DNA of 64,000 bases from Desulfonatronum lacustre DSM 10312 (GTDB lineage Bacteria > Desulfobacterota > Desulfovibrionia > Desulfovibrionales > Desulfonatronaceae), in assembly GCF_000519265.1 (NCBI RefSeq), contig NZ_KI912608.1, positions 261,665-325,664 of the forward strand, given 5' to 3'. Below the pieces are notes generated by a model. That model saw only the letters and a program-made list of their open reading frames with translations. It ran no database searches and was not told the origin of the DNA. Positions within the stretch are counted from its first letter, which is position 1. Every line of letters begins with the position of its first letter. This document shows, piece by piece, positions 35,933 to 50,886 of this stretch. The translations under genes and the position numbers were made by a program.

Positions 35933-36820
35933 TCAAGCGCCGCTCTGCAGCACGACCCGCACGGCGCACGGACCTTTCTTGTTGACGCTCTCCTGAAAGG
36001 AAACCCTGTCGCCCACGGTCAGTCGGTTGATGTCCATGTCCACCAGATCGCCGTAGTGAAAGAAAAGGTCTTCCTCGCCCATGTCCGGGCGGATGAATCC
36101 GTATCCGCCCTGAATGGAGACCACGGTTCCGGATTGGTCCTCGCCGGGTTTCGCCTTGGCCGCGTCCACGGGTCGGTATTTCTCCTTGACGAACAAATCC
36201 CGCACGATCTGGTCGTCGTGGCGCTCGGGGTCGTCGATGACTTCGTTGATCAGGATCGGATAGGTGGCATTATCCAGCAGGGCCTGGGAGGTCTTGGTGA
36301 CCCGGTGGTTTCCGTACTGATCCACGTATTCGAAGTCGCACCCCAGGACCATGACCCGCGCGCCGATGGTATTCAGCTTTCTGGTCAGGGGCAGGTAGTC
36401 CCCGTCCGAGGCGATGAGCACGATGACGTCGTACTTCTTGAAAATGGCCAACTCAAAGGCCTCCAACGCCAGCCAGACGTCGATGCCCTTTTCCCCCTCC
36501 GGAGACATGGGCAGATAATGCGTGATCACCCCTTCCTTCATCAGGATGTCGTCGAATATCCGCTCCTTGAGCAGCAAGTCGCGGGCCTGGGCGTCGTAGG
36601 CCGTCAGCCGACCCCGGAAATAATGCATGTCCACGATCTTGCAGTTCTTGACCGGCCGTTCCTCGCGGGCCGCGACTTCGTGGATGATGAACTGGTGGAT
36701 TCCGTTGATGCTGATCCGGGATTTGCGGGAGTGGTCGTAGAGGTAATAGTTGCTGACGTGAAAGAAGAAATTGCCGTCGTAAAAGATGCCGACCTTGGTC
36801 AGATTCGTGTTGGTGATCAT
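35933..36820 (-). CDS. NYN-domain (LabA/DUF88) nuclease-like protein fused to a cold-shock domain
   Basis: A 295-aa protein. Residues 1-200 form a NYN/PIN-like domain: D15 in VGIFYDGNFFF, D114 in KGIDVWLALEAFE and SDGDYLPL (D139, D141) are the acidic metal-site residues of this nuclease superfamily. Residues 229-292 are a cold-shock RNA-binding fold with RNP1 GYGFI (239-243) and RNP2 DLFFHY (251-256). The fusion suggests an RNA-directed nuclease. It is convergent with yjbQ. Upstream (36.84-37.08 kb) I see no other gene. Confidence 0.88.
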   Translation of the reverse strand: MITNTNLTKVGIFYDGNFFFHVSNYYLYDHSRKSRISINGIHQFIIHEVAAREERPVKNCKIVDMHYFRGRLTAYDAQARDLLLKERIFDDILMKEGVITHYLPMSPEGEKGIDVWLALEAFELAIFKKYDVIVLIASDGDYLPLTRKLNTIGARVMVLGCDFEYVDQYGNHRVTKTSQALLDNATYPILINEVIDDPERHDDQIVRDLFVKEKYRPVDAAKAKPGEDQSGTVVSIQGGYGFIRPDMGEEDLFFHYGDLVDMDINRLTVGDRVSFQESVNKKGPCAVRVVLQSGA

Positions 36821-37079
36821 TCAGGTTCCTGATGTTGGTTGTTCGAAAAATTCCTTCCTCCCCGTCAATCCTTGCCCCATCGCTGCCTCTGGCGAGTGAT
36901 CCGTCGGGCGGCTTTTGTGGCCTCTGATCGGTACGTCAGGAAAATCCTCTTGCTCATGGCTTTCAGTATAGAGCTGCGAGGATGGGCTAGCAAGGGATGG
37001 AGGCGGGAAGGCTGCTGCAACAATTTTCGCTTGACATTATTTTGGGGCAAGGTAAGGTTTCTTTTAGCTGAATGACAAA

Positions 37080-37187
37080 GTCCGCTCAGGGCAAACCATC
37101 CGAAAGGATGGGACGCAAAGCCGACGGCCTACGTCTCGCCCGCACCGCACCCCGTGCGGGAGGGATAGGGCGGCAGGGTTGCCGGAC
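37080..37187 (+). promoter_or_regulatory. GEMM (c-di-GMP-I) riboswitch
   Basis: The core GGGCAAACC (37089-37097), stem CCATCC-GAAA-GGATGG with its GNRA loop (37096-37111), GACGCAAAGCC (37112-37122), a long P2 containing CCCGCAC...GTGCGGG, and GGCAGGGTTGCCGG (37172-37185) match the GEMM-I consensus in order and spacing. Outer stem GTCCG/CGGAC closes it (37080-37084, 37183-37187). It is followed by about 230 bases of leader and then pilA, so c-di-GMP should control pilin expression. Which direction (on or off) cannot be read from the sequence. Confidence 0.92.
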
Positions 37188-37419
37188 AAAACGGGCGACG
37201 CCAAATGTTTTTTGGCCAAGCCCGACAGGGTAGCAAAGGCGAAACAGAAACTCAGGTCTCAGGTCCCAGCCTTCTGTTTTCAAGCCTTCAGCCCTCTGAA
37301 AAAGCCCGCGCCAAAAAAAGGACGGTCGTTCAGTGCTAGTGACTCGTTGTGGCGGCGTTCTGGTAACAGTTGGAACGAAATCGGGCAAACATTCCACCCA
37401 AAATCCGAAGGAGGGCATT

Positions 37420-37827
37420 ATGCAAATGCCAAGAAAAGGTGAAAAAGGCTTTACGTTGATCGAATTGTTGATCGTTGTGGCGATTATCGGGATTCTGGCG
37501 GCGATCGCGATTCCGCAGTTTGGGAAGTATAAGGCAAGGTCGGCGGCTTCTGCGGCTACGGCGACATTGAAAACATGTGCGACACAGCTTTCGGCAGCCT
37601 ATGCTGCTGGTGATACTCCAGACGAACATGATTCGTTGACAGTAACTGGTGGGAATACTACCTGGACTTGGGAATGTCCGATAGGAAATGAGACACAAGA
37701 CTTCGTATTGTCTTTAGCCAATGGGACTATTAATGCATTCACGAACGAAGTCTATGTAGTAAGCGCAGTCAATGTAAGATGTTCATTTAGTTCGCCAGGT
37801 ATTGTTGAGTGCGAACCTGCTAATTAG
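37420..37827 (+). CDS. pilA: type IV pilin with three N-glycosylation sequons
   Basis: A 135-aa type IVa prepilin. [10 protein letters not shown] is the leader; cleavage is expected after Gly10, giving mature [20 protein letters not shown] with Glu at position 5. Length is short for a PilA, similar to the geobacterial/desulfo type. Two or more Cys pairs may close a disulfide loop. It has three N-X-T sequons, N79, N90 and N101. The start at 37420 follows GGAGGGCATT. A c-di-GMP riboswitch precedes it, a strong terminator follows, and an oligosaccharyltransferase gene comes next on the same strand. Confidence 0.95.
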
Positions 37828-37864
37828 CAGACGTATTTTTTTGTCATTATTTGATTTTTGGCAC

Positions 37865-37905
37865 AAAGGCAGTTCGCTAAGTAAAACTTAGCGAACTGCC
37901 TTTTT
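37865..37905 (+). terminator. rho-independent terminator of pilA
   Basis: An 18-bp perfect stem (37865-37882 with 37886-37903) around AAA, ending in a T-run. The stem includes AGTTCGCTAAGT. It separates pilA from the oligosaccharyltransferase gene. Confidence 0.95.
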
Positions 37906-37991
37906 ACTTTTTTTGCCAATCATGCTGGCGCATTTCGTCCCTGATGCCCTATTTCTGGTTATATTGTCATTTTAAGGTTTGTGGGGTTTAG

Positions 37992-40178
37992 TTGGGCATT
38001 ATCTGTAATCGACAATATGTTCGAGTTTTTTGCATGCTCTTGGCCGCGATCCTGGTTTATGTCCTATGTTTAGGGTTGCGGCTGGCCGAACTCCCGGCCT
38101 GGGAGCCTCAGTTGCATCAGGTGCAGGGCGAGAGGCTCCAGACCACCCACGACGCTTACTACTTCCTGGCAGGAGCCAAGGGAACGGCGCGTCCTAATCC
38201 TCATCATGAGCCGTTTTTCAAGCTGACCCGTTTTTTTCATGTCACCACGGGCATGTCCTACGGCGATTTGGGCTTCTGGCTGCCCGTCTTCCTGGCACCC
38301 CTAGTGGTTTTTCCCCTGGCCTTCCTCGCTTGGCGAGAAGGAGTTCCCGAGGCGATTCTGCCCATGGGCATTATGGCTGGCGGAGCCATGGGCTTTTTGG
38401 CCCGGACCAGATTGGGATATTACGATCATGATATGCTCAGCCTGCTACTGCCGGTGCTGTTCACGACGTGTTTGTTTTTTTTTCTGGATTATTGGCTGCC
38501 CAAAAAACAAGGTGGCGGCGGTTTCGCGCTAAAGCCCAACGGTTATTATTGGCCCGCTGACTGGAAGCTGTTCCTCGGCGCCTGTTTGGGTTTGGGCGTC
38601 CTGGGCTGGGCGTATGTCGGGTTTTATTCCTCGGGCCGACTCATAGTGATGGCCATCGTCGCCATGGGCGTTCTTTTGACTTTGGCCTTGGCTCGGGACG
38701 GCCGACAGCGGGCGGTTCTCTGCGTGTGCCTAGGCATGGTCTTTCTGCTGGCCGTGAACATTTTCTGGGGAATGTTCGTGTTGGCAGTCTTGACCCTGGC
38801 GCTCGGTCCTTTTTGCAAGTGGTTCAGGTCAGGTCCGTACTTTTGGCTCCTGGTGAGCGTGTGCGCCCTGGCAGTTGTCTGGGCCGGCAATCTCGACACG
38901 CAGGTCAGTTCGGTGCTTCGCCAACTGGCCAAATATTCTCCCGTTGTTTCCGAAAGCAATCAGACCATCGACACCTTGGCCTTGCCTTCGGTGATGCAAA
39001 GCGTTCGTGAAGCCCGCTTGCTCTCCTGGGAAATCATGGCAGAACGGTCCGGCGTGACCGGATGGTTGTTTGCTTTGGGTGTTGTCGGATTCGTCTATCT
39101 GGCTTGGCGGCGCCCCCTTTATCTCCTGTTTCTTCCATTGCTTATACTGGCTGTAGGCGCAGTGAAGCTAGGTGCGCGATTCACCATGTATGGCGGCGTC
39201 CCGATTGGTTTGGGCCTAGGCTTGGGTCTGGCCTTGCTGCTTGGCAGGCTTCGCCTCGGACAGGCTGCCAGAACCGCTATTCTGAGCGCGTTTGCCTTGG
39301 TGGCGGCCATGTTACTATGGGCCCAGTCCGACATATTAAAACCTGTTCCAGTCCTTTCCCGTGCATATGCCGAGACATTGCTGCAACTGCGGGAAAGTAC
39401 ACCGGTCGATGCCCGGATCTGGACATGGTGGGATTACGGCTATGCCACGCAGTACTATGCAGAACGGGCATCCTTTGGTGACGGGGCGCTGAATACACGA
39501 GATTATCTTTATCCCTTGGCCCTGGTGCATGCCACCTCATCCCCTTTGCAGGCGGCTCAAGTGATCAAGATGGTGACAGCCGGCCAAAACAATCAGTGGA
39601 GGGAAGAGGGAACCAAGGAAGGGCCGTTCGATGGAACTGCTGTGCCTTGGCCGCTTTATCTGCAACCGCCCTTGAGCGGATTGCGAGAGATGGGCGCGGC
39701 TCAGGCACAGGCATACATGGACGACTTGGCCGAGACTAGACAGACATGGCAGGACACCCTGCCGGAGCAGTATATACTCTTTTCGTGGCAGAATCTGGCC
39801 ATGGCGGCTTGGATCATCCATTTCGGCAACTGGGACGTGCAAAGCGGTCAGGTGGGCTCCGGCAAGATTCAGCGGATTTTCATGGATGTTTCCGTGGACC
39901 TAAATGCCGGTGTACTTGTTTTTTCTGATGGGAACACCGTAGAATTGGACGGTTTTCTTTCGGTTTCCCAAGGCGGGGTTGACGAGTTCACCTGGGACAA
40001 GGAGACCGGTGACTACGTGATATACGTCGACGACCTGCAGCAGTTTTTATTCGTGGACAAGACCATGTATGACTCCATGCTCGTGCAGATGCTCCTAAAC
40101 GATTCGGTCCTGTTCATCGAGGATTTTGAACTTGTATTGGACAATTCCCCCTGGGCCAGAGTCTATCGGGTGCGGTGA
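37992..40178 (+). CDS. oligosaccharyltransferase of the STT3/PglB family
   Basis: A 728-aa membrane protein with about 11-13 N-terminal helices and a periplasmic C-terminal domain. The defining catalytic motif WWDYG is at about residues 479-483 (TWWDYGYATQYYAE). The first luminal loop has a DAYYF motif with the acidic residue of STT3 (THDAYYFLAGA) and a second in LGYYDHDML. It transfers lipid-linked glycan to Asn in N-X-S/T. TTG 37992 or ATG 38034 may be the start. It overlaps the convergent WecA-like gene by 16 bases. I use no symbol because PglB and AglB families cannot be separated by eye. Confidence 0.94.
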   Translation: MGIICNRQYVRVFCMLLAAILVYVLCLGLRLAELPAWEPQLHQVQGERLQTTHDAYYFLAGAKGTARPNPHHEPFFKLTRFFHVTTGMSYGDLGFWLPVFLAPLVVFPLAFLAWREGVPEAILPMGIMAGGAMGFLARTRLGYYDHDMLSLLLPVLFTTCLFFFLDYWLPKKQGGGGFALKPNGYYWPADWKLFLGACLGLGVLGWAYVGFYSSGRLIVMAIVAMGVLLTLALARDGRQRAVLCVCLGMVFLLAVNIFWGMFVLAVLTLALGPFCKWFRSGPYFWLLVSVCALAVVWAGNLDTQVSSVLRQLAKYSPVVSESNQTIDTLALPSVMQSVREARLLSWEIMAERSGVTGWLFALGVVGFVYLAWRRPLYLLFLPLLILAVGAVKLGARFTMYGGVPIGLGLGLGLALLLGRLRLGQAARTAILSAFALVAAMLLWAQSDILKPVPVLSRAYAETLLQLRESTPVDARIWTWWDYGYATQYYAERASFGDGALNTRDYLYPLALVHATSSPLQAAQVIKMVTAGQNNQWREEGTKEGPFDGTAVPWPLYLQPPLSGLREMGAAQAQAYMDDLAETRQTWQDTLPEQYILFSWQNLAMAAWIIHFGNWDVQSGQVGSGKIQRIFMDVSVDLNAGVLVFSDGNTVELDGFLSVSQGGVDEFTWDKETGDYVIYVDDLQQFLFVDKTMYDSMLVQMLLNDSVLFIEDFELVLDNSPWARVYRVR

Positions 40179-41635
40179 TTGTTTGCGGCCAAACGGGTCA
40201 GGGCTTTGGTCAGGGCGCTACGCAGTGGTTCGACACTGGCCAGGATGTCCTCGTTGGGAGCCACGTCTTGAATGTCCTTGACCAGGAACAACGTGCCCAG
40301 GCAGGCTGATTCAGCGTCCAAGATCGAAATTTCCAGGCGAAGCAAGGGTGGTCTGCGCATATCTGCAGGACAATTTTCGCCGTCAAACGCCCCGTCTGCT
40401 GTACCGCCACCGTGATTTGTCCTGAGACCGCCCTTTTCAACCCCCATCTGCTCCAGGATTTTCCTCAGCTTCCTGTGCAATGCCTCCATGTCCGGTGCAT
40501 TTTTCAGTTCCGGCAGCAAGTCCATCCAGCGTCGATCACTGGGTAGCCCTGTCGCCCTGAGCATGGTGTCGGCCGTTTCTGGAAAACAGCGCAGGCGCAA
40601 CGTTTCCAAATAGCCAAGTTTGCCCGCGAAAATGAAGGCTCCCGCGCCTATCAGCACCAGGAGCAGGCCGCTTTGCTCATCCCGGATGTTCACCAGGACG
40701 ATGGCCAGGGTGCAAAGTGTTGCTGTCAGGCCGTAGAGGACCATCACGGCTTTGGGTGTATTCAGGCCTATTCTGAGCAGCCGGTGGTGGATATGATCGC
40801 TGTCCGGCTGAAAGATTTTCCTGCCTTGGACAAGGCGGCGCAGGGCGGTCAGGAGGATATCCAGAAGGGGTAGCCCCATGGCCAGGACCGGGATGAGAAT
40901 GGCCGCACCCACGTGGGTTTTGACCGAGGTGATCAGCCCGAAACCGGCGATGGCGTAGCCCAGGAAATACGTGCCGGCATCCCCCAGAAAGATCGTGGCC
41001 GGATGGAAATTGGAGCGCAGAAAGCCCAGCACCGACCCGGCCAGGGCCGCGAAAAACAGGGCCGTGAGATAATCCTCCCGCGGAATGGCCAGCACGATCA
41101 TCACCAGGGACGCAAAAAAAACAATCCCCCCCACCAGCCCGTCCAGTCCGTCCATCAGGTTCAGGGCATTCATGAACAGCAGAAACCAGAACACGGTCAG
41201 GAGGTACGACGTGACCGGGTCGAAGAAGACGGCCAGGCCGAACAGGACGAACTTGTCCAGGGCGATGCCCCCGGCATAGGCCGCACTGGCCGCCAGAATC
41301 TGGACTGGGAGTTTTTTCCAGGCGTTTAGCCGGAAGAGGTCGTCATAAAGCCCTAAACCCAGGGCGATCAGCGCCCCGGCCAGCAGACCGAGCAATGATC
41401 GGTCCGGGATGATCAGTCGGGAAACATCCGTGCCCCAGAGCCAGGCGATCGTCAGCGTGATCCCCACGGCGGCAAAGATGGCCAACCCGCCGGTCCGGGG
41501 GATCACCCCGTCGTGCACCCTGCGCCCTCCCGGTGTGTCCAGGGCTCCCATGACCACCCCCAGTTTGCCCGCCAGGGGGGTCAGAATCAGTGCTAGCAGA
41601 AGAGAAAGCAGAAAAGTGGTCAGCAGGGTGGTCAT
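40163..41635 (-). CDS. WecA-like polyprenyl-phosphate sugar-1-phosphate transferase
   Basis: A 490-aa PNPT-family enzyme (WecA/MraY type), with about 10 helices. The N terminus DTPGGRRVHDGVIPRTGGLAIF has the signature basic block. Further landmarks are LGLYDDLFRLNAWKKLP, NALNLMDGLDGLVGGI and AGDAGTYFLGYAIAG. It should put the first sugar on undecaprenyl phosphate. The C-terminal ~150 residues after the membrane core are extra and have no recognised domain. It heads or ends the minus-strand glycan cluster 40-51 kb and is convergent with the oligosaccharyltransferase. Confidence 0.9.
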   Translation of the reverse strand: MTTLLTTFLLSLLLALILTPLAGKLGVVMGALDTPGGRRVHDGVIPRTGGLAIFAAVGITLTIAWLWGTDVSRLIIPDRSLLGLLAGALIALGLGLYDDLFRLNAWKKLPVQILAASAAYAGGIALDKFVLFGLAVFFDPVTSYLLTVFWFLLFMNALNLMDGLDGLVGGIVFFASLVMIVLAIPREDYLTALFFAALAGSVLGFLRSNFHPATIFLGDAGTYFLGYAIAGFGLITSVKTHVGAAILIPVLAMGLPLLDILLTALRRLVQGRKIFQPDSDHIHHRLLRIGLNTPKAVMVLYGLTATLCTLAIVLVNIRDEQSGLLLVLIGAGAFIFAGKLGYLETLRLRCFPETADTMLRATGLPSDRRWMDLLPELKNAPDMEALHRKLRKILEQMGVEKGGLRTNHGGGTADGAFDGENCPADMRRPPLLRLEISILDAESACLGTLFLVKDIQDVAPNEDILASVEPLRSALTKALTRLAANNHRTR

Positions 41636-41656
41636 GGTCTTTGTCCGATACTCCGT

Positions 41657-42466
41657 TCAACGGATCCGTTGAAGGACATAGAATCGAGTCGTCGCTTTCG
41701 TGTGGGCTTCGACCATTTTTATGTCTTTTCGTTTTGTCAGGTAGTCGTCGATGTCGCGATAGTCGAATCCCAGGTGCGTTGAATACTTATCCCTCTCAGG
41801 CCGAAATTGCGACAGACGTTCACCGCGCAGGAGAGCAAGCAGATACCCTCGGGGCGATGTTCCAAAACCCTGGAGTTCCCTGTGGAGGGGGCTCTTGAGG
41901 ATTATCTTGGCGAGGCCGGGAAATCCGATTTCCACGGGAACAGTGATCAGTAGTCTGCCGCTGGATTTAAGGCTGTTCAGCAACGTTTGCAGCGCATGAC
42001 TCAGGTTGCCGACGTGTTCCAAGGTTTCCAGGCAGGTAACAAAATCGAAACGAAGTTTGGCCGCTTGGCAGTTGAGATCAAACTTTTGAAAATTGATGCT
42101 TGGATAGGTTGTTCGTGCGGCTGCCAGGTGTTCGATAGTATGGTCAAAACCATGAGTATCCTCGGCCTTGATCATGGCAGCGATCAATGAGGTCAGGTAC
42201 CCGTTGGAGCAGCCAAAGTCACCATATGTGGCGACATGGCTGGGGGCATGTTTTTTCGCAAGCCGTGCAATGCGCCGCAAACGCAAGCGATGGGGCAGAT
42301 TTCGTAGCCGACCATCGGTATATGTCAGGGAATGATCCAGAGGCATTGGTCGCAGGCTTCTATTGTTTTGTAGGTGAGGTCCCCAAAAAGCCTTACCTTC
42401 TGAACACGGCCCTCCAAGCATACGATGAAAAGCAGATCGCGCTCTTGAAGAATCCGAGTTTTTCAT
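41657..42466 (-). CDS. class I SAM-dependent methyltransferase
   Basis: A 269-aa methyltransferase-like protein with motif I YGDFGCSNGYLTSLIAA (SAM binding), a motif around FDLNCQAAKLRFDFVTCLETLEHVG and LLITVPVEIGFPGL. It is probably part of glycan modification, but the acceptor is unknown. The frame overlaps the upstream glycosyltransferase gene by 74 bases if it starts at 42466; an in-frame ATG at 42346 (MPLDHSLTYT) would remove the overlap and leave a normal-length methyltransferase core. Confidence 0.8.
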   Translation of the reverse strand: MKNSDSSRARSAFHRMLGGPCSEGKAFWGPHLQNNRSLRPMPLDHSLTYTDGRLRNLPHRLRLRRIARLAKKHAPSHVATYGDFGCSNGYLTSLIAAMIKAEDTHGFDHTIEHLAAARTTYPSINFQKFDLNCQAAKLRFDFVTCLETLEHVGNLSHALQTLLNSLKSSGRLLITVPVEIGFPGLAKIILKSPLHRELQGFGTSPRGYLLALLRGERLSQFRPERDKYSTHLGFDYRDIDDYLTKRKDIKMVEAHTKATTRFYVLQRIR

Positions 42467-43160
42467 GTTTACGGTAGATTTGCCATTGCCGCCGAGCTTT
42501 GCCGATTTTATTCCTGGAAAGAGAGCCGGGTACTATTCGATATTTGGTTAACGCCACTGGAAGGCATGTGGCCAATAATCCCGTTCGCAACAGTGTAAGC
42601 CAAAAAGCATAGTCCTGCCCTGTGCGCAATTCGGGCATGCGGGCATCGCCAACCATATCCCGTTCAATTATCACCGTGGAACAGCCCATGGTTGCCTTTT
42701 TGCGCAACATGTTCTCATAATTAACCGTTGAACGAGATTTGCCGTCCACGACCTTGCCTGTGAATTTTCCGTGCCGGTCGATGACTTCGAACGCAGTGAA
42801 GGAAAATGAGAGGTTTCCAAATGCCATGAAATCCAGGTGTGTTGAGAGTTTATGTGGAAGCCAGACGTCGTCGGCGTCGAGAAAGGCAAAATAATGGCCT
42901 TTGGCCCTGTCCATGGAGCGGTTGCGGGAAAAAGCAGGCCCCTGGTTCGCGTCGTTGCGAACAGCCTTGATTCTGCTGTCCGAAGCGCACAGGTCTTGGA
43001 TCATCTGCCATGTGCCGTCCTGAGAAAAATCGTCCGTAATCAGCCATTCCCATTTCTGGTGCGTCTGAGAGCGGACGCTGATGGCGGTTTGTTTGAGATA
43101 CGCAGAGCTGTTGAATGTCGGGGTGATGATGGAAATGAGAAAATGAATTCCATGAGACAT
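42393..43160 (-). CDS. glycosyltransferase family 2
   Basis: A 255-aa GT-A enzyme: ISIITPTFNSSAYLKQT start, nucleotide-sugar and DxD motif in YFAFLDADDVWL, then a C-terminal acceptor region. The start ATG 43160 follows GGAGACATTAGA, whose TAG is the stop of the upstream GT4 gene, so translation is coupled. Sugar specificity is unknown. Confidence 0.9.
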   Translation of the reverse strand: MSHGIHFLISIITPTFNSSAYLKQTAISVRSQTHQKWEWLITDDFSQDGTWQMIQDLCASDSRIKAVRNDANQGPAFSRNRSMDRAKGHYFAFLDADDVWLPHKLSTHLDFMAFGNLSFSFTAFEVIDRHGKFTGKVVDGKSRSTVNYENMLRKKATMGCSTVIIERDMVGDARMPELRTGQDYAFWLTLLRTGLLATCLPVALTKYRIVPGSLSRNKIGKARRQWQIYRKHEKLGFFKSAICFSSYAWRAVFRR

Positions 43161-43161
43161 T

Positions 43162-44343
43162 CTAATGTCTCCACAGGTCAATATATTCTTTCATTTGTAT
43201 TTCTGCATTAAATTTTTCCTCTATCAATATCTTAGCGTTTTCACCAATCATTTTTTTTTCAGAATCGGATAGTTTGGTTATTATATCAGCGGATTGTTCT
43301 ATTTCATTTTCTAAAACAATAAATCCTGTTTTTCCATGTAAAATAAGATCCTCAATTCCTGGAGTATAAGAGGTAATGCATATGCATTTTGCAAACATTG
43401 CTTCCTTAATAACGTTGGGAAGTCTTTCACCTTTTTTATATGACAATAAAATAAAAAAATCAGAGTTTCGCATTATTTGAAATAATTTTTGCTGTTGTAT
43501 ATGGCCATAAAATTTAACATAATTTTGTATTTTATTTGATTTTGATAATTTTTCTAAATTATTTCTAAAATTACCGTCTCCAACAATTGAAAGCTGAGCA
43601 TCTATTTTTCTTTTTAAAACAATAGTGAATGCGTTTATGACTTTATCAAATCCTTTTTCTCGAATTAATCTTCCTGCGGTGAGTATTTTATTGTTTTTAG
43701 TTTTTTTTTCATTTAAAAAGCTATTTAGATAGGCTATGTCAATTCCTCTATGAACTACATTTATGCGAGATAAGCCAACTCCGAGATTCTTTATTGTTTC
43801 GACATTTGCTTTGGTATGAGTGAAAATGATGTCTGCAATTTTTGCAAGACTAGCACTTATGCCAAGCCTCATTTCAAGGTCATATGCTCCAAGAAATAAA
43901 GAAATTCTAATTTGTGGTGATTTATTTCTTATTAGGTAGCCAACTATACTTGGATAGTGTCCCCAATATAAATGTACGACGCTTGGATTGAACTCTTTGA
44001 TGCGGCTCAAAATAAAAAAACTTGCCGGTACCAACGCAAGACATTTGAATAATTGGAGAGGTTTGTTGAATTCATTTTTAACCAACCAGCATATCAATTG
44101 AATTGATGAATTCAAATAACGCAAGCAAGCGAATAGTCCAAGAATGTAATTTTTAATGCCACAGCACGTGATCGGAATTGGTTTAAGGTCGCGATCTTTA
44201 ACCATTTCTTCAAAATCGCGATGTGCCGGTTTTTGTGTGAAAATTGCGATCTCAACTCCAAGTCTATTTAACACGCGTACATCGCTGCAGGCAAATGTTT
44301 CTGAAGGAGCAGGGAATTGAGTAGTTATATACGCAATCTTCAT
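43162..44343 (-). CDS. glycosyltransferase family 4
   Basis: A 393-aa GT-B enzyme starting MKIAYITTQFPAPSETF. The donor half has ILTAGRLIREKGFDKVI and the E-x7-E motif in LPNVIKEAMFAKCICITSYTPGIEDLI. The DNA is markedly AT-rich compared with surrounding genes, suggesting separate transfer of this cluster. It is followed immediately by the GT2 gene. Confidence 0.9.
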   Translation of the reverse strand: MKIAYITTQFPAPSETFACSDVRVLNRLGVEIAIFTQKPAHRDFEEMVKDRDLKPIPITCCGIKNYILGLFACLRYLNSSIQLICWLVKNEFNKPLQLFKCLALVPASFFILSRIKEFNPSVVHLYWGHYPSIVGYLIRNKSPQIRISLFLGAYDLEMRLGISASLAKIADIIFTHTKANVETIKNLGVGLSRINVVHRGIDIAYLNSFLNEKKTKNNKILTAGRLIREKGFDKVINAFTIVLKRKIDAQLSIVGDGNFRNNLEKLSKSNKIQNYVKFYGHIQQQKLFQIMRNSDFFILLSYKKGERLPNVIKEAMFAKCICITSYTPGIEDLILHGKTGFIVLENEIEQSADIITKLSDSEKKMIGENAKILIEEKFNAEIQMKEYIDLWRH

Positions 44344-44368
44344 TACTTTATTAGTCCGTGGAAAAGGT

Positions 44369-44610
44369 TAAAACCCCCGGCTTTAGCCGGGTGGCTTTCA
44401 GCTAGCGGTTTGGCTTTACGCTGGTGTACCGCCTGGACTGCCTTGCATGCGAATAACGCGTCGGATTTGTGTAAACGTGCTTGCCGAGGCCTGGGTGTTT
44501 AACGTGGCCGATGAGGAGCACGTACGAACCGGCTGCGAAGCCTGCCGGTCAAGGCTGGACTTTCAGTCCGCTGGATCAAACCCACCAGCTTTAAGCTGGT
44601 GGTTGTTTAG
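44369..44610. mobile_element. decayed IS200/IS605-type element (ends only)
   Basis: A GC-rich hairpin CCCGGCTTTAGCCGGG (44376-44391) at the left and CCACCAGCTTTAAGCTGGTGG (44582-44602) followed by TTGTTTAG at the right look like the subterminal hairpins of IS200/IS605 elements. The intervening 190 bases resemble a tnpB 3' end but have no open reading frame (for example the NNASDLCKRA stretch). No transposase is present. It interrupts the strand of glycosyltransferase genes. The family call is by pattern only. Confidence 0.55.
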
Positions 44611-44649
44611 TCATAAAAAGCAGTTAAAAAATTGTATTGTATATATTTT

Positions 44650-45795
44650 TTAATTTATATCAAGTGCTTTCATATACTCTACAACAGCATTATTAACAGA
44701 AAAATCAGCAGCACGTTTCCTTACATCAGGTGGATTGGGATCGTTGAGTGCCGAATCCATTGCCTCTGCAAGCGCAATTGTATCTCCAACAGGAACAAGC
44801 CGGCCCCATCGTTCATTTTCAAGTACCTCAGAAGGCCCATAAGGGCAGTCCGTGCTAACTACAGATGTGCCACAGGCCATAGCTTCAATCAAAGCGCAAG
44901 GTAAGCCTTCCCATATAGAGGTAAGAACAAAAAGTTTTGCTGCTCGCATCCAAGCGTAAGGATTGTCAACAAATCCTGGCAGGGCGATTTCGTTTGTAAG
45001 CCCCAAGTTTTCGATTAACAACTGTAATTCATTCCGAAGTTCGCCTTCGCCCAGAATCACCAAGCGCACAGAGCGTCGATCTCGAAGTTTAGAAAATGCG
45101 TTAATGAGTGTTTTGAAACTTTTTAGAGGCGTCAATCTTCCAACCCCAAGGACGACGGGAGGTTGATTTGGAGCAAACCATGGGTGCTCGGGGGGAGATT
45201 TTCCGAGAACTTCAATTCGAGGGGCATCAATTGGGTTGTAGATCACCTGAATTCGTTCGCGAGGCAAACCGGTAAGCAGTACAAGGTCATCCGCCACTCC
45301 TTGTGAAACAGCCACAACCTTATATGCTTTGGGGTAAAATAAGCGCATGAGAAATGGCATGACCCTTGTTCTGAAGCCTTTCGCATATGCTCGAGTTGAA
45401 ATTAGTGGACTACGTTCAGAAATAACGAGTCGTAGCGGGAAATTGGCCAATTTTGTAGCTAGAATTGCAATCACATTAGCATGGCGCAATGCAGTTAGCA
45501 TGGCCTGTGGTTGTTCTTTTTGAATGTACTTTGCAAGTGGCAATACGCTTGTCAACATACGAGAAGTATTTAGGTGGATGATGCGTACTTTTGGTGATAT
45601 ATTTTTCAAATATGGTCCTTCGGCTTTTGAAAGTACAAAGTCTGTACCAATGCCGCGATTAGTAAAGGCATTGGCCAGTGTGACCATTACTCGTTCCGCT
45701 CCACCGCCGCTAAGCATAGGGAGATACAAGGCAACTCGTTTTGAGAGGAGTGGAGGCATCAAATGGCTCTTTTTTATGTGTTGTTGACTCCCCAA
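44650..45795 (-). CDS. glycosyltransferase family 4
   Basis: A 381-aa GT-B enzyme. MLSGGGAERVMVTLANAF near the N terminus and the donor half VVLGVGRLTPLKSFKTL, LTSIWEGLPCALIEAMACGTSVVSTDCPYGPSEVL are typical of capsular/LPS GT4 enzymes. The sugar is unknown. Confidence 0.92.
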   Translation of the reverse strand: MGSQQHIKKSHLMPPLLSKRVALYLPMLSGGGAERVMVTLANAFTNRGIGTDFVLSKAEGPYLKNISPKVRIIHLNTSRMLTSVLPLAKYIQKEQPQAMLTALRHANVIAILATKLANFPLRLVISERSPLISTRAYAKGFRTRVMPFLMRLFYPKAYKVVAVSQGVADDLVLLTGLPRERIQVIYNPIDAPRIEVLGKSPPEHPWFAPNQPPVVLGVGRLTPLKSFKTLINAFSKLRDRRSVRLVILGEGELRNELQLLIENLGLTNEIALPGFVDNPYAWMRAAKLFVLTSIWEGLPCALIEAMACGTSVVSTDCPYGPSEVLENERWGRLVPVGDTIALAEAMDSALNDPNPPDVRKRAADFSVNNAVVEYMKALDIN

Positions 45796-46267
45796 TGTTA
45801 TTCAGGAAATTCTGAAAACTGGAGGGGGTAAGATGGACAAAGACTTTCAACTCATCCTGGTTTGGATCAACGATTTGGATGAGGCCCAGCGCAAAGGAGT
45901 TCGTGGCGGTCCTTGTTGCAAGAGACCGGAGCGGTTCCACGGGGACTGCATTTTGGATCAGGACCGAGGTGCCAAGGCAGTGAAAAAAGGGTTGTCTGGA
46001 GCGCTGGGCAAAACACGATGCTTTTGCTTGACGTGGCAACGCGCTTTGGGGATTTGTCCAACAAAACGTCATCCCGTGCAAAGTAATTGCTCCTGGTCGG
46101 CATGTGCATGAAAGAGAGCCTGTGTTTTCTGCAAAACGTCAACCCTACATCAAACACTCAAGGGCTGGATCAGTCGTTTTCTCTGCAGCTACTGGAGATA
46201 GCCAGACCTTTCGACCTGTTTGCCCAATAGATGTCGGGTGGCTTCATCCTGCTGAACATTTTTCAAA
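45796..46267. other. about 470 bases without a supported gene
   Basis: Several overlapping short frames of 90-125 codons exist on both strands, none with a recognisable domain, ribosome site or family. It lies between two glycosyltransferase genes and may be a decayed gene. I see no repeat here. Confidence 0.6.
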
Positions 46268-47380
46268 TCAATACTCCAATTTTTCAACCCTGGCCTGCCA
46301 GGTATAATTCCTTACAAACTCATCATGAGCGGTTTGTCCCAGTTGTACGGCAAGTATTTTGTCCTGCCTCAACCTTTCCAGGGCTTTTACCCACTCATTT
46401 ACATCATCCGGCGGACATAAAAGTGCATTTTTTTCATGTGCAAAAACTTCTCTGAGCACGGGCAGGTCAGAGCAGATGATGGGTTTCTGGGCTGCCATGT
46501 ATTCAAATAGCTTTAAAGGTGACATCCAATTAACTGTGTTACCGCCACCTGATATGGAAACATCAGATTGGTAGGGCGCAAGTAGAACATCAAAGCTAAT
46601 GCGCAACCTTTCTCCTTCAGCTGGCGCAACGAAGCCGCGGAATAATATATTGTCGTGACCCTTTGTCTTAATCATCCAGTATTTGATATCCGTCTCAGTT
46701 CCACCAACTAAATGAAAATTGGCCCAGTCACAGTTCTTGGCCATATCAATGATGATATCCACACCTCTACCCTTATACAAATGCCCCACATACCCCACCT
46801 GCAATCGCGCACCCTTGTTGGGCAGGTCAAAGGGTTCAATTCCTTCCGGCACAGGATCTGCACCGTCCGGGGCGACCTGGATCTCATTACCATCACAAGA
46901 GTAATTATCTAGATAATATTTTTTCAGGGCATGGGTTATGACCACCATCTTCTTCAGCTTGGATGACTCTAGAATCCGACGAAACATCCAATTACTGATT
47001 GTTCCGCTGTCTCCCAGCGGAGCGTGGGACTCGAAAATGACCGGCAGACCAAGCTTGGCAGCAAAAAAACACCCGGGAGCATTCCGACAGTACACAACAT
47101 CTGGTTTTAATAACCTAGCCTTTAATCCAGCCAAAAAACCATATATATGCCCTCGGCCTCTGATGGGCAGCCAGGGCAAGTTGATGATCTCAAAGCACTT
47201 GTCCACCCCATAAAACTTATAAACATCCTCCACACCCGATTCCAGTGCATCCTTTTTATCCGGCGCAATCAGCACCACCTCATGCCCGTTTTTGGCGAAC
47301 GCCTGACACATCTTCATCACGTGGATGCTGTTGGCTGCACGGGATGGGATGGTGGATGAAGATATGTAGACTATTTTCAT
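46268..47380 (-). CDS. glycosyltransferase family 4
   Basis: A 370-aa GT-B enzyme. MKIVYISSSTIPSRAANSIHVMKMC starts the acceptor half; LQVGYVGHLYKGRGVDIII and PLKLFEYMAAQKPIICSDLPVLREVF form the donor half. The start at 47380 is preferred over a frame continuing to 47503 because it begins with the family's MKIxYIS pattern; an ATG at 47386 is equally possible. Confidence 0.9.
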   Translation of the reverse strand: MKIVYISSSTIPSRAANSIHVMKMCQAFAKNGHEVVLIAPDKKDALESGVEDVYKFYGVDKCFEIINLPWLPIRGRGHIYGFLAGLKARLLKPDVVYCRNAPGCFFAAKLGLPVIFESHAPLGDSGTISNWMFRRILESSKLKKMVVITHALKKYYLDNYSCDGNEIQVAPDGADPVPEGIEPFDLPNKGARLQVGYVGHLYKGRGVDIIIDMAKNCDWANFHLVGGTETDIKYWMIKTKGHDNILFRGFVAPAEGERLRISFDVLLAPYQSDVSISGGGNTVNWMSPLKLFEYMAAQKPIICSDLPVLREVFAHEKNALLCPPDDVNEWVKALERLRQDKILAVQLGQTAHDEFVRNYTWQARVEKLEY

Positions 47381-47524
47381 CTGCATTAGTCGATTTAAAA
47401 TTTTCGCAGGCCATTCTTGGTTCGATTTAAAGTGAAATTTTTCTTTGCGCCTGAATATTTTGTCAATATAAATCTGGCAACAACACTGAGCATCTGAATC
47501 CAATACACATACGTTACGCGCTTG

Positions 47525-48283
47525 TTACAAGATTTTTTTATTTGTCAAAACAGCTACCAAATGAAATCCTGTGCCCTCATCTGCGATCCGGTAGTTTCGC
47601 CAAACATCTCGCCATGCAAACCGCATGAATGGTTTGAATTCCAGTGAAAATACCTTGTTATTGAAAAAACGTCTAAAAATATTGTACCACCAAGGTTTGC
47701 GAAAAATATATTCGTATTCTTTTATGCTCAGCCCTGCTTGGCTATCTGCGAGCTGATTTTTCAGCAAATCAATTGTATAATGCCTGTAATGCTTCTTGTT
47801 CAAGGGGATATTTGTAGTAGGGACTGAAATTATGATTGTGCCGCTGTTATTGGTACGATGACAAAGTGAGTTAAAAAAAACAGGTAATTCATTTTCCTGG
47901 ATATGCTCTATCACTTCTATGGCTGCGACAATGTCAAAAGTGTCTTTTATAGCATTAAAATCCTGGGCAAAAAAAGTGCAATCAGGATGAAAAGCTCTGG
48001 CAAAAGCAATAGATTTCGATGACAGATCAACACCAACCCTGACAGGGATAGAGGAAGGAAGCCCGCTGATAAAGTAACCATCCCCGCAGCCGACTTCCAG
48101 AACCGATTGCGGGTGCATGGCAACAACCTTCTCCTGTAGATGCTTCTGGTAGCAAAGATAATCAAAGCCCCAGTTCAGCTTGCGCATTAGAGAAGGAGTC
48201 CCGTCTGTTTCAAAGTGCGGGATATAGTGGTAAGGGAATTGGTAAAGATTATCCTGAAGTTCGAATTTATTACTATTGCTCAT
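47525..48283 (-). CDS. class I SAM-dependent methyltransferase
   Basis: A 252-aa protein with motif I VLEVGCGDGYFISGL, DLSSKSIAFARAF, and FDIVAAIEVIEHIQE, a UbiE/Methyltransf_11-like fold. It is likely a sugar or lipid methylase of the cluster. It overlaps the amidotransferase-like gene upstream by 11 bases. Confidence 0.88.
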   Translation of the reverse strand: MSNSNKFELQDNLYQFPYHYIPHFETDGTPSLMRKLNWGFDYLCYQKHLQEKVVAMHPQSVLEVGCGDGYFISGLPSSIPVRVGVDLSSKSIAFARAFHPDCTFFAQDFNAIKDTFDIVAAIEVIEHIQENELPVFFNSLCHRTNNSGTIIISVPTTNIPLNKKHYRHYTIDLLKNQLADSQAGLSIKEYEYIFRKPWWYNIFRRFFNNKVFSLEFKPFMRFAWRDVWRNYRIADEGTGFHLVAVLTNKKIL

Positions 48284-49538
48284 TTGCCTTGGTCTCTGCT
48301 GCTTTGAAAAATATTTCCAGTGATGCCAAAAGAGTGATTAATTGTGAATGATTAAATCTCCGAGATTGATGCTCCTGCCAGATGGTGGGGATACGAATTC
48401 CTTCCACGATATTTCTTTTATGCAAATCATTGAGGCTTTTTTCGGCAATGGTTTTCAAATCCGGCTTTTCCCGGTAGGCCTTTTCAAAGTCAATATAATT
48501 CAATCCCGGAGAGGGTTTCGTGAAAACAAACGGCAGATATCTGCGGACAAGATTACTGGATCTATTTAGCAAACGTTTCTGAAACACTTGGAAACGCGAA
48601 GCTCCAAGTGGCAGTCCGCCCAGATTCTTCAACGGCAATGAAAAAAGATCCGGATACATATGCTGCAAAATCTTTTTGTACAAAAACTGGCCGTTGCGAA
48701 GCTCGTGGGGCAGATTTAACATAAATTCTATCCAGCGGGGGTATAAAAACGGGGTAATACGTTGGTAGCCTTTTAAAAGGACAAGGGGCAAAATATTGCA
48801 CCTCTGCCTTATAAAAAAGTCCAGTTGTTCATCAAGGGTAAGTAGCACGGCATCGGCCAGCGGAGCTGAGGGCAAAAAGTCTTTTTCCGGAAAAAAAAAC
48901 TTCAACTTAGTATAATTATTCCTTTGGATAAAAGCAGCTTTTGCCTGCGGCCAATCTGTGCTTTGATTTGCAGGCAGATGTGACCCGGACAGGGGATCCC
49001 CCATAAAGCCGCTTAAATAGCAAGGATTGCCTCTAAAATCATCAAAAATCTGGCTGAACAAAAAACCTTCAATCAGTGCTATGGGGAATTGATATTTGCT
49101 GGCGTAACTAATCAGATCATCTTCATTCCAAGTGATTTGATCCAGGTTGACCGCTTTGTTTGCAATTCCTGACTTCTGCGTCACCTTTTGCCCGATTTCA
49201 TAATCAAGCGCTCCAGGAATTCCAACGGTTACTGTCTGCACCTGCTCTTTTGGAAGGTGCTGTAAAATACCGGCAAGGATGGCACGAGAGTCCATACCAC
49301 CGCTTATTGGGACAACAGTGGCTCTGTTTCCTATCTTCCGGGCTGTGTCTTTAAAAACATCATCAAGTATTTCTGCCCCTTTGCTGACAAGGTCTTTTTC
49401 CGGCCTCTGGCTTTTGGCTTCTTCAATTTCAATTCCGTAGCGGGATAGCAAGCCAACAAGGTTCACCGGCCTGGGCCTGGGTACATAACCGTAGTGGAGA
49501 AATGCCTTGATCTGGTCCTTAGTTAGTTTCTGCTGCAC
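48273..49538 (-). CDS. asparagine-synthetase-like ATP-pyrophosphatase domain protein without glutaminase
   Basis: A 421-aa protein. PISGGMDSRAILAGIL (the PP-loop SGGxDS) begins the AsnB C-terminal synthetase domain. The N-terminal class II glutaminase domain of AsnB (starting with catalytic Cys) is absent; instead there are about 90 residues of unknown fold. Similar truncated proteins in glycan clusters amidate sugars using ammonia or a partner. It overlaps the flippase gene by 20 bases and the methyltransferase by 11. Confidence 0.85.
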   Translation of the reverse strand: MQQKLTKDQIKAFLHYGYVPRPRPVNLVGLLSRYGIEIEEAKSQRPEKDLVSKGAEILDDVFKDTARKIGNRATVVPISGGMDSRAILAGILQHLPKEQVQTVTVGIPGALDYEIGQKVTQKSGIANKAVNLDQITWNEDDLISYASKYQFPIALIEGFLFSQIFDDFRGNPCYLSGFMGDPLSGSHLPANQSTDWPQAKAAFIQRNNYTKLKFFFPEKDFLPSAPLADAVLLTLDEQLDFFIRQRCNILPLVLLKGYQRITPFLYPRWIEFMLNLPHELRNGQFLYKKILQHMYPDLFSLPLKNLGGLPLGASRFQVFQKRLLNRSSNLVRRYLPFVFTKPSPGLNYIDFEKAYREKPDLKTIAEKSLNDLHKRNIVEGIRIPTIWQEHQSRRFNHSQLITLLASLEIFFKAAETKANEQ

Positions 49539-50886
49539 TTGGGGTCAGCCTTCTTGAGATAAGAAAGATTTCAATCGCCAGCATGAAAGCCGACCAGGAG
49601 ATGTAATAAATCAGATAAGATATGCCTGCCCCTAGAAGCCCTGTGCTGGGAAGCAGAAAAAATAGAGCTGTGAAATATATGAGTGTGGCAGCTAAATGAA
49701 CCCCAAGGGTGGTATGTGGCCTGCCCATGGAAAGCATGGCCGGCTGCAGAGGGAATGCCGCAGCCGCAACAACAATCGCCATCATGTACCATAGCATGAC
49801 TTCCACGGCTTTCAGGTACTCTTCTCCAAAAATAAGTAAAATCACTATTTCCCCGAAAAAAATGAAGAAAAACCAGACGCTCAGTGCAAACAATCCGGCC
49901 AGAAGAGAAGATCGGAGCCCAAACCGTACGAACTCCTTTACTTCTCCTTTGGCGTAAAGTCTTGCCAAATCAGGAAATATGGATTGATATAAAGGATCGA
50001 TCGTCTTTTGGAGCACCAGAGAAAACTGCTTGGCTATTTTGTATAACCCTACCGCTGCGGGGCTCAACAAAGCGGCAATGATCATGATATCCACTTCCCT
50101 GGAGGCCATCCGGATCGAACTGTTGATATTGGTCGTCAACACAAAGCCCCAGATCCTAGAAAATTTTCTTCCGATATTCCTTGTGGTTGCGTGCATGAAG
50201 TCATGGTGTTTTTGCAATAGAAGCTCATTGTATGCCATACAGACCAGCAACAGCTTGCCCAAGATATCCACCATCGCCCATACAATGAGAAACGACCACA
50301 GACCTGCGCCGACAAAAAAAGCGATGGTTACGCCTGCCAGTTTTATGGCTGAAGCGATTACGTGCTGGTAGGCCAACTTGTTGAACTTGTCGAAAAGACG
50401 CAGAATCGCCATGGGCGTTCCCTGGATGTGAAAAAGGATGGTGGAGCTGTAAATGGTTGCCATGATTACAAGCTGCTGATCCCATCCTCGCCAATGTCCG
50501 ACAAACCATGCAGCAGAGGCGGCGATAATCATGCCGAGAACCGCTGTGGAGCAGTCCATGAGGAAACCGAACTTGAGCAGGGATTTAAAATCCTCGTCAC
50601 TTTCTTTTTCCAGAGCGTCTGCTCCGTACTTGATAATTGCCTGCCAAGTCTGGAAATTGACCAGTTTATCAACAATCCCGACATAAGTGGTGATAAGCAC
50701 CAGTATGCCAAAATTTTCGACTCCAAGAGCGCGGGCAGTCATGGCCAGAGAGGCCAACCCTAGCAGGGATGCACCTACATTACCGCTGAACAGCACAGCT
50801 GCATTTTTGAATAAACGCCTCAGCAGATCGTCCTGCAGCCAGTGGCGGGGATGGCCCAGAGATTTGACGAACCTGAGTATATTCAT
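49519..50886 (-). CDS. Wzx-type oligosaccharide flippase
   Basis: A 455-aa integral membrane protein with about 12-14 helices, starting near SLGHPRHWLQDDLLRRLFKNAAVLFSGNVGASLLGLASL. It belongs to the polysaccharide-biosynthesis (MOP/Wzx) family and should flip the lipid-linked glycan to the periplasm, where the oligosaccharyltransferase acts. It is the first gene of the minus-strand cluster from the right. Confidence 0.9.
   Translation of the reverse strand: MNILRFVKSLGHPRHWLQDDLLRRLFKNAAVLFSGNVGASLLGLASLAMTARALGVENFGILVLITTYVGIVDKLVNFQTWQAIIKYGADALEKESDEDFKSLLKFGFLMDCSTAVLGMIIAASAAWFVGHWRGWDQQLVIMATIYSSTILFHIQGTPMAILRLFDKFNKLAYQHVIASAIKLAGVTIAFFVGAGLWSFLIVWAMVDILGKLLLVCMAYNELLLQKHHDFMHATTRNIGRKFSRIWGFVLTTNINSSIRMASREVDIMIIAALLSPAAVGLYKIAKQFSLVLQKTIDPLYQSIFPDLARLYAKGEVKEFVRFGLRSSLLAGLFALSVWFFFIFFGEIVILLIFGEEYLKAVEVMLWYMMAIVVAAAAFPLQPAMLSMGRPHTTLGVHLAATLIYFTALFFLLPSTGLLGAGISYLIYYISWSAFMLAIEIFLISRRLTPSAAETN

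Follow-up and report, generated by a model that had tools for sequence, protein, structure and literature searches.

Within the 64,000-nucleotide stretch of Desulfonatronum lacustre DSM 10312 analyzed here (the window; contig NZ_KI912608.1, positions 261,665 to 325,664 of the forward strand), the gene of a type IV pilin, pilA, is followed by a gene for an oligosaccharyltransferase (OST) of the STT3/PglB family and by a convergent set of glycan biosynthesis genes starting with a WecA-like one. From the distribution of these genes and of N-glycosylation sequons in PilA, we consider it likely that they reflect a general bacterial N-glycosylation system for which the major pilin PilA is one selected target.

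Sequons in PilA and presence of the oligosaccharyltransferase

Among the eight genomes of the genus, five encode the OST and their PilAs carry 3 (window), 3, 2 (overlapping), 3 and 4 sequons. A sequon-free PilA beside the same enzyme, the observation that an earlier sequence-only reading of this DNA had regarded as fatal to its proposal, was found in none of the five. Sequon positions vary across the genus: a given alignment column holds one in at most two of the five OST-positive species. G004 (99% complete), which is nested among OST-positive genomes on an rpoB tree, has no OST (no match at E<=10 for PF21436 and PF02516), no close orthologue of the WecA-like gene and a PilA with 0 sequons; the last two genomes, G025 and G035 (90% and 84% complete), gave neither OST nor PilA match at E<=1e-6. 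Expected numbers of sequons were obtained by within-protein shuffling, and reversed motifs served as a second control. By these measures, 30 further pilin-like proteins from the genus, a set mixing OST-positive and OST-negative genomes and including pseudopilin-like proteins, are not enriched (28 sequons vs 26.6 expected and 26 reversed motifs).

At the level of the order Desulfovibrionales, 247 genomes were searched with a profile of the six PilAs; 127 match at E<=1e-6, and 50 loci were taken from the better matches. With a single pilin retained for each genome, subject to a minimum similarity score of 140, the comparison comprised 25 OST-positive and 10 OST-negative genomes, the latter being those with no OST match above cut-off in our searches (15 genomes were searched further). 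Extra pilins of genomes already counted were dropped (G009x, G039x, G051x, G069x, G060b), four loci held no usable pilin (L208, L212, L219, L221), L180 (G086) was added by a separate pattern, and the pilin of L194 extends to the contig end. The PilAs of the OST-positive genomes hold 98 sequons vs 43.8 expected and 46 reversed motifs, and those of the OST-negative genomes 13 vs 9.0 expected and 8 reversed motifs. At least two sequons are present in 25/25 OST-positive vs 3/10 OST-negative genomes (Fisher p=1.8e-5; Mann-Whitney on sequon numbers p=6e-5, kinship being ignored in both). Among the 98 sequons, 74 are N-X-T and 16 (16%) have D or E at -2, the D/E share of the same regions being 10.7%. 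A recurrent sequon, located where helix 1 ends, is seen in 21 of the 25 OST-positive vs three of the 10 OST-negative genomes (G063, G065, G078). Because no excess is seen for the reversed motif, nor any enrichment in the 30 further pilin-like proteins, we argue that PilA itself is probably under selection for sequons.

Kinship or amino-acid composition could also produce the link between the OST and PilA sequons as a side effect, an explanation that we find quite improbable. Indeed, composition-keeping shuffles still leave a two-fold excess in OST-positive genomes, no such excess is seen for the reversed motif and sequon positions vary across the genus; in favor of this explanation, PilAs of OST-negative genomes tend to have fewer Asn, and clean independent contrasts are few. 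The rpoB tree comprises 27 of 30 requested genomes (no whole rpoB in G038, G050 and G053), that is 25 of the 35 compared genomes together with G059 and G022. Out of five changes of OST status on this tree, sequons follow in two, stay the same in three (fragmented assemblies) and go the opposite way in 0; without the three fragmented assemblies, they follow the OST in 2/2 contrasts, one being G004 and the other the g2+g14 clade, which is devoid of OST and has few or no PilA sequons. The drop in sequons with OST loss is thus suggestive and would not amount to phylogenetic proof.

Several observations weigh against a selected pilin target. With only two clean independent contrasts, a sign test cannot reach significance. 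Three OST-negative genomes, G063, G065 and G078, keep 3-4 PilA sequons each and account for 10 of the 13 OST-negative sequons, the remaining seven (5 to 250 contigs) holding 3; these three assemblies are in 510, 400 and 390 contigs, their genera include OST-positive members, the single OST match of G063 (12.8 bits, E 0.09) is under cut-off, and the OST may be missing from fragmented assemblies. The similarity cut-off removed six genomes scoring <140, including two OST-positive ones with a sequon-free pilin (G047 and G072, 0 sequons each) and two with three (G053 and G066, 3 each), besides the OST-negative G059 (0) and G022 (0); when all six are restored, at least two sequons are found in 27/29 OST-positive vs 3/12 OST-negative genomes. 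Taken alone, the three sequons of the window PilA are within chance (1.45 expected, p=0.155), and a fold comparison of its model gave no PDB match at E<=0.001. Regarding the glycan genes, only the OST and the WecA-like gene are common to all five OST-positive genus genomes, L032 having no other cluster genes beside the OST. Finally, in Aquificota, 18 pilins adjacent to an OST in 10 loci hold 40 sequons vs about 28 expected and 47 reversed motifs, and are thus not enriched.

The oligosaccharyltransferase and its acceptor site

The OST exceeds the Pfam cut-offs for PF02516 (38.1, cut-off 24.5) and PF21436 (57, cut-off 23), and its first ATG, at 38034, lies 14 codons inside the TTG-started frame. 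Compared with Campylobacter lari PglB (phmmer E=3.5e-23), it shows two significant stretches, 30-158 and 207-501, the latter with WWDYG, and a weak third one (643-727, i-E 0.18). With 29 aligned loci of the order it shares HDA, DxD (DHD in the window), S(V/I)(R/K)E (SVRE), RF (ARF) and WWDYG/WWDFG, an ER segment being also visible in this alignment. The acidic residues of external loop 1 (EL1) and of DxD, the Glu of EL5 and WWDYG are all present, as expected of an STT3/PglB/AglB enzyme. An Arg aligns (phmmer) with the residue of C. lari PglB that we take to be R331. The Campylobacter PglB equivalog model NF050801 gives 113.1 bits, far under its curated cut-off of 1300. Among relatives that bear a name, 'Desulfovibrionales bacterium GEM2.Bin26' (L032) is the closest, at 55%. 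In another genome, G002, there are three nearly full-length OST matches (C26, C17, C28).

None of the PilA sequons of the window has D or E at -2, as the sequence-only reading had pointed out. Desulfovibrio PglBs are reported to use N-X-T without an acid at -2, and D. gigas PglB, which has an E-R pair at the place of R331, still accepts non-acidic -2 residues (PMC4894442). As far as that report goes, the lack of an acid would therefore be no obstacle in the window PilA and fits Desulfovibrio enzymes. The D. gigas protein HmcA is described with its glycan at TANGT (PMC4894442); N101 of the window PilA sits in LANGT.

Distribution of the oligosaccharyltransferase with respect to pilins

The sequence-only reading had proposed an OST dedicated to the pilin, and this has to be abandoned. 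The OST is present in 156/247 genomes of the order; a pattern search found no pilin in the fetched flanks (mostly about 9 kb per side, shorter at contig ends) of 37 OST loci from 35 genomes outside the genus; and 13 of 20 listed genomes without PilA match (120 such genomes in all) carry the OST. Judging from this distribution, targets other than PilA must exist. Within the genus, the distance between pilA and the OST varies from 164 bp (window) to 2.3 kb (L099), 2.8 kb (L032), about 11 kb (G015) and different contigs (G030). The interval contains two PIN-domain genes in L032 (6160-7783) or the gene of an actin-like protein in L099 (3933-5186), and in L100 of G015 a different pilin-like open reading frame (ORF) lies about 3.5 kb from the OST.

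The same data favor an explanation in which the OST is a general N-glycosylation enzyme acting on periplasmic or surface proteins such as cytochromes, PilA being adjacent by chance and its sequons incidental. As a whole, we hold this explanation to be improbable: its first part is probably right, whereas incidental sequons are at odds with the excess found in PilAs of OST-positive genomes but not in the remaining pilin-like proteins of the genus, and with the few or no sequons of G004 and the g2+g14 clade. These same observations lend support to the idea, already put forward from the window alone, that PilA is an N-glycosylation target.

Among the genes flanking pilA in OST-less genomes, none emerged as a general replacement (7 loci listed, four proteins scanned). 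OST-less G017 encodes, downstream of pilA, a large membrane protein truncated where the locus ends (L181:1907-3331); it is reminiscent of TMTC-type glycosyltransferases, and Pfam gives only a TPR match under cut-off.

Gene content of the locus and conservation of the glycan cluster

The features of the locus are as follows.

37080..37186, + strand: c-di-GMP-I (cyclic di-GMP) riboswitch aptamer in the pilA leader (Rfam RF01051, 61.2 bits vs gathering score 35)
37420..37827, + strand: pilA, type IV pilin, 135 aa (N_methyl PF07963; sequons N79-T-T, N90-E-T and N101-G-T)
37865..37903, + strand: intrinsic-terminator-like hairpin in the pilA/OST gap (18-pair stem, then T-rich tail)
37992..40178, + strand: STT3/PglB-family OST, 728 aa, TTG start (PF21436 57 bits, PF02516 38.1 bits)
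40163..41635, - strand: WecA-like polyprenyl-phosphate sugar-1-phosphate transferase (PF00953, 113.6 bits)
41657..42466, - strand: S-adenosylmethionine (SAM) methyltransferase 1, MT1 (PF13489)
42393..43181, - strand: GT2 glycosyltransferase (PF00535, 105.6 bits)
43162..44343, - strand: GT4 glycosyltransferase a, GT4a (PF00534, 112.2 bits)
44650..45795, - strand: GT4 glycosyltransferase b, GT4b (PF00534, 129.2 bits)
46268..47503, - strand: GT4 glycosyltransferase c, GT4c (PF13692, 60.6 bits)
47525..48283, - strand: SAM methyltransferase 2, MT2 (PF13489, 46.6 bits)
48273..49538, - strand: AsnB-like protein, possible sugar amidation (PF00733, 24.5 bits, just above cut-off 21)
49519..50886, - strand: Wzx-like flippase (PF01943 72.9 bits, PF13440 64.8 bits)

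Pfam and Rfam thus bear out the gene inventory of the sequence-only reading (PilA with three N-X-T sites, STT3/PglB-type OST, convergent cluster and riboswitch). Its statement that all parts for en-bloc N-glycosylation are present holds for most of the pathway. Likewise, the OST gene is indeed adjacent to pilA on its downstream side, and the terminator-like hairpin between them means that one operon is not implied. The WecA-like and other glycan genes are convergent to the OST; the OST and WecA-like genes overlap at their ends by 16 bp, as they also do in L032. The best NCBIfam match of GT4b is ProtGlycPglJ (162.8 bits, under the cut-off of 500). Upstream of pilA, a gene for a protein with NYN and cold-shock domains (35933-36820, - strand) is 89% identical and syntenic in L032.

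In the genus, a close WecA-like orthologue (53-73%) adjoins the OST in 5/5 OST-positive and 0/3 OST-negative genomes. A distant WecA-like match (28-34%) is found elsewhere in all five OST-positive genomes as well as in G004 and G035. Near the whole WecA-like gene, short copies of its N-terminal part occur at G030:C2:8968-9198 (77%) and G010:C127:98650-98844 (72%, with a stop). Part of the gene order is shared by L100 (G015), where the WecA-like, MT1, GT2, GT4a and GT4b genes stand in order beside the OST with 65-79% identity (GT2 79%, GT4a 74%, GT4b 65%). L101 keeps the WecA-like gene and MT1, L032 the WecA-like gene alone, and L099 ends 0.7 kb into the WecA-like gene and is uninformative. GT4c has no tblastn match in L032, L099, L100 or L101; the AsnB-like and Wzx-like proteins have none in L032, L100 and L101, and MT2 only has a weak match overlying MT1 in L100. 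The whole set is found in 0/37 OST loci outside the genus, where a WecA-like match (28-31%) is present in four (L089, L090, L107, L111) and at least one glycosyltransferase match lies near the OST in 14; glycan genes are therefore often near the OST.

The cluster may also serve another polysaccharide. WecA, Wzx and these glycosyltransferase families also function in O-antigen synthesis, and the poor conservation of GT4c, AsnB, Wzx and MT2, together with the lone WecA-like gene of L032, would suit an O-antigen or another surface polysaccharide, the glycan of the OST coming from elsewhere. We rate this as unlikely, given that the close WecA-like orthologue tracks the OST in 8/8 genus genomes, that the distant copy could serve another polysaccharide and that five cluster genes are kept in order beside the OST in L100. 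The outer genes of the cluster may either diversify the glycan or be part of the pathway of a different polysaccharide.

Pilin model and riboswitch

The window PilA has a GFTLIE leader and an N-terminal helix (PF07963 39 bits, TIGR02532 37 bits). Its AlphaFold2 model, built from 35 sequences (mean predicted local distance difference test score 83.4), displays a helix (11-61) and a beta domain. In this model, whose numbering is two less than that of the 135-aa protein, the sequon Asn are predicted at the first residue of a strand (77), in a turn (88) and in a loop (99), corresponding to N79, N90 and N101.

The riboswitch lies upstream of pilA in all six genus genomes with this pilA, OST-less G004 included. 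AGGGC is invariant in 6/6 around the presumed ligand position, at which a G would separate c-di-GMP from cyclic GMP-AMP (cGAMP) aptamers. Riboswitch control of the OST, and thereby c-di-GMP control of glycosylation, finds no support, the strong hairpin of 18 pairs intervening and the riboswitch going with pilA even without OST. Nor is a riboswitch-controlled pilin in itself new, a precedent being C. difficile pilA1 (PMC6200980).

In the leader, a conserved stretch around 37308-37340 can pair with about 37068-37093, 5' of and inside the aptamer, over a span of about 250 nt, and is a candidate expression platform. Across the six genomes, 98.4% of 126 cells pair although the middle differs; covariation is unsupported, with no double changes and shuffles doing equally well, and the ungapped complementarity in the window alone has p=0.18. 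A second c-di-GMP-I riboswitch of the window genome (G000:C1:1607717-1607809, - strand) lies near a pilin-like match (1606870-1606989, - strand), and riboswitches near other pilin-like matches also occur in G010, G015, G030 and G004. In genus g4 (G078 and G003; loci L187 and L191), the riboswitch upstream of pilA is c-di-GMP-I-GGC (RF03167), an Rfam family different from that of the window. An Acido-Lenti-1 RNA match (46.5 bits, L177:700-744, - strand) lies near pilA of G030.

Pilins beside STT3-type enzymes in Aquificota

In Aquificota, 49/136 genomes match the L072 OST at E<=1e-20. A pilin-like ORF is present in the OST flanks in 14 of the 34 loci scanned, and one or two pilins are next to the OST in 10 (L237, L238, L245-L252). 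The OSTs of L072 and L067 are above the Pfam STT3 cut-offs, and in both loci the pilin and OST frames overlap if the earliest possible start codons are taken; L250 and L251 have no WWD motif in the OST frame. The sequon sum given above leaves aside a longer ORF of L250 (3 sequons) and four loci with a single pilin-like ORF, namely L243 (0), L261 (0), L266 (1) and L269 (1). As sequons are not enriched over the reversed motif, Aquificota were rejected as independent support; the pilin-adjacent STT3-type OSTs of the 10 loci may be a second instance.

Proposed mechanism and significance

In the system that we propose, the WecA-like enzyme would start a sugar chain on polyprenyl phosphate at the cytoplasmic side, the glycosyltransferases would lengthen it, decorations may be added by the methyltransferases and the AsnB-like protein, and the Wzx-like protein would flip the lipid-linked glycan. 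The STT3/PglB-type OST would then transfer the glycan to Asn of exported proteins. PilA would be one target under selection, its sequon number being kept while places shift, and dropping to that expected by chance upon loss of the OST. The c-di-GMP riboswitch would govern the supply of pilin and not the OST. Beyond the genomic observations, we infer the attachment of a glycan to PilA, the use of this cluster's glycan, the direction of the switch and a benefit to the cell.

More broadly, we lean slightly towards the view that in several Desulfovibrionales families the fiber of the major type IV pilus is N-glycosylated at multiple sites, with 2-7 selected sequons per subunit, the genus gaining or losing OST, WecA-like gene and PilA sequons together and Aquificota being perhaps a second instance; such a fiber would be a bacterial counterpart of archaeal pili. 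In our search of the open-access literature, outside which most subscription-journal papers fall, no bacterial type IV pilin was reported as a target of an STT3/PglB-type OST. This is consistent with the fact that, to our knowledge, the glycosylation of bacterial type IV pilins known so far is O-linked; N-glycosylated pili are known from archaea. If correct, our proposal would name native substrates for relaxed-specificity OSTs of the Desulfovibrio type, provide a natural series of gains and losses in which sequon number follows the enzyme, and offer, in bacteria, a parallel to the glycan-covered pili of archaea. The acceptor rules of Desulfovibrio-type OSTs were called unknown in 2015, in the work of Ollis et al. 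(PMC4894442).

Comparison with known systems

The Campylobacter pgl system resembles the present one by an OST of the same family with WWDYG and by polyprenyl-linked glycan genes nearby, GT4b scoring best with the PglJ model. It differs by the sequons, which are here without acid at -2, by the score against the PglB model (113 vs a cut-off of 1300) and by its initiator and flippase: Campylobacter uses PglC and PglK, instead of which a WecA-like initiator and a Wzx-like flippase are found here.

Closer to the window enzyme, the PglBs of D. gigas, D. desulfuricans and D. vulgaris share the relaxed -2 position and the use of N-X-T, that of D. gigas also having the E-R pair at the place of C. lari R331, as does the window OST in our alignment (PMC4894442). 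In contrast to the case described here, the main text of that paper reports no pilin substrate, and in the fetched flanks of the 37 OST loci outside the genus no pilin was found.

Gene neighborhood with the pilin is shared with the O-oligosaccharyltransferases PglL and PilO/TfpO, 21/31 PglL candidates being reported with the OST gene next to their pilin target (PMC3643930). However, these enzymes are O-linked ones of the Wzy_C family, whereas the present one is of the N-linked STT3 family and is predicted to act at a sequon. Regarding regulation, C. difficile pilA1 is likewise a major pilin under a c-di-GMP riboswitch, with a class II aptamer there and a class I aptamer here (PMC6200980). Finally, the archaeal pilins and archaellins modified by AglB are filament subunits glycosylated at sequons by an STT3-family OST (PMC2952790, PMC5131992), which is what we propose for PilA, in this instance for a bacterial type IV pilin whose leader has GFTLIE.

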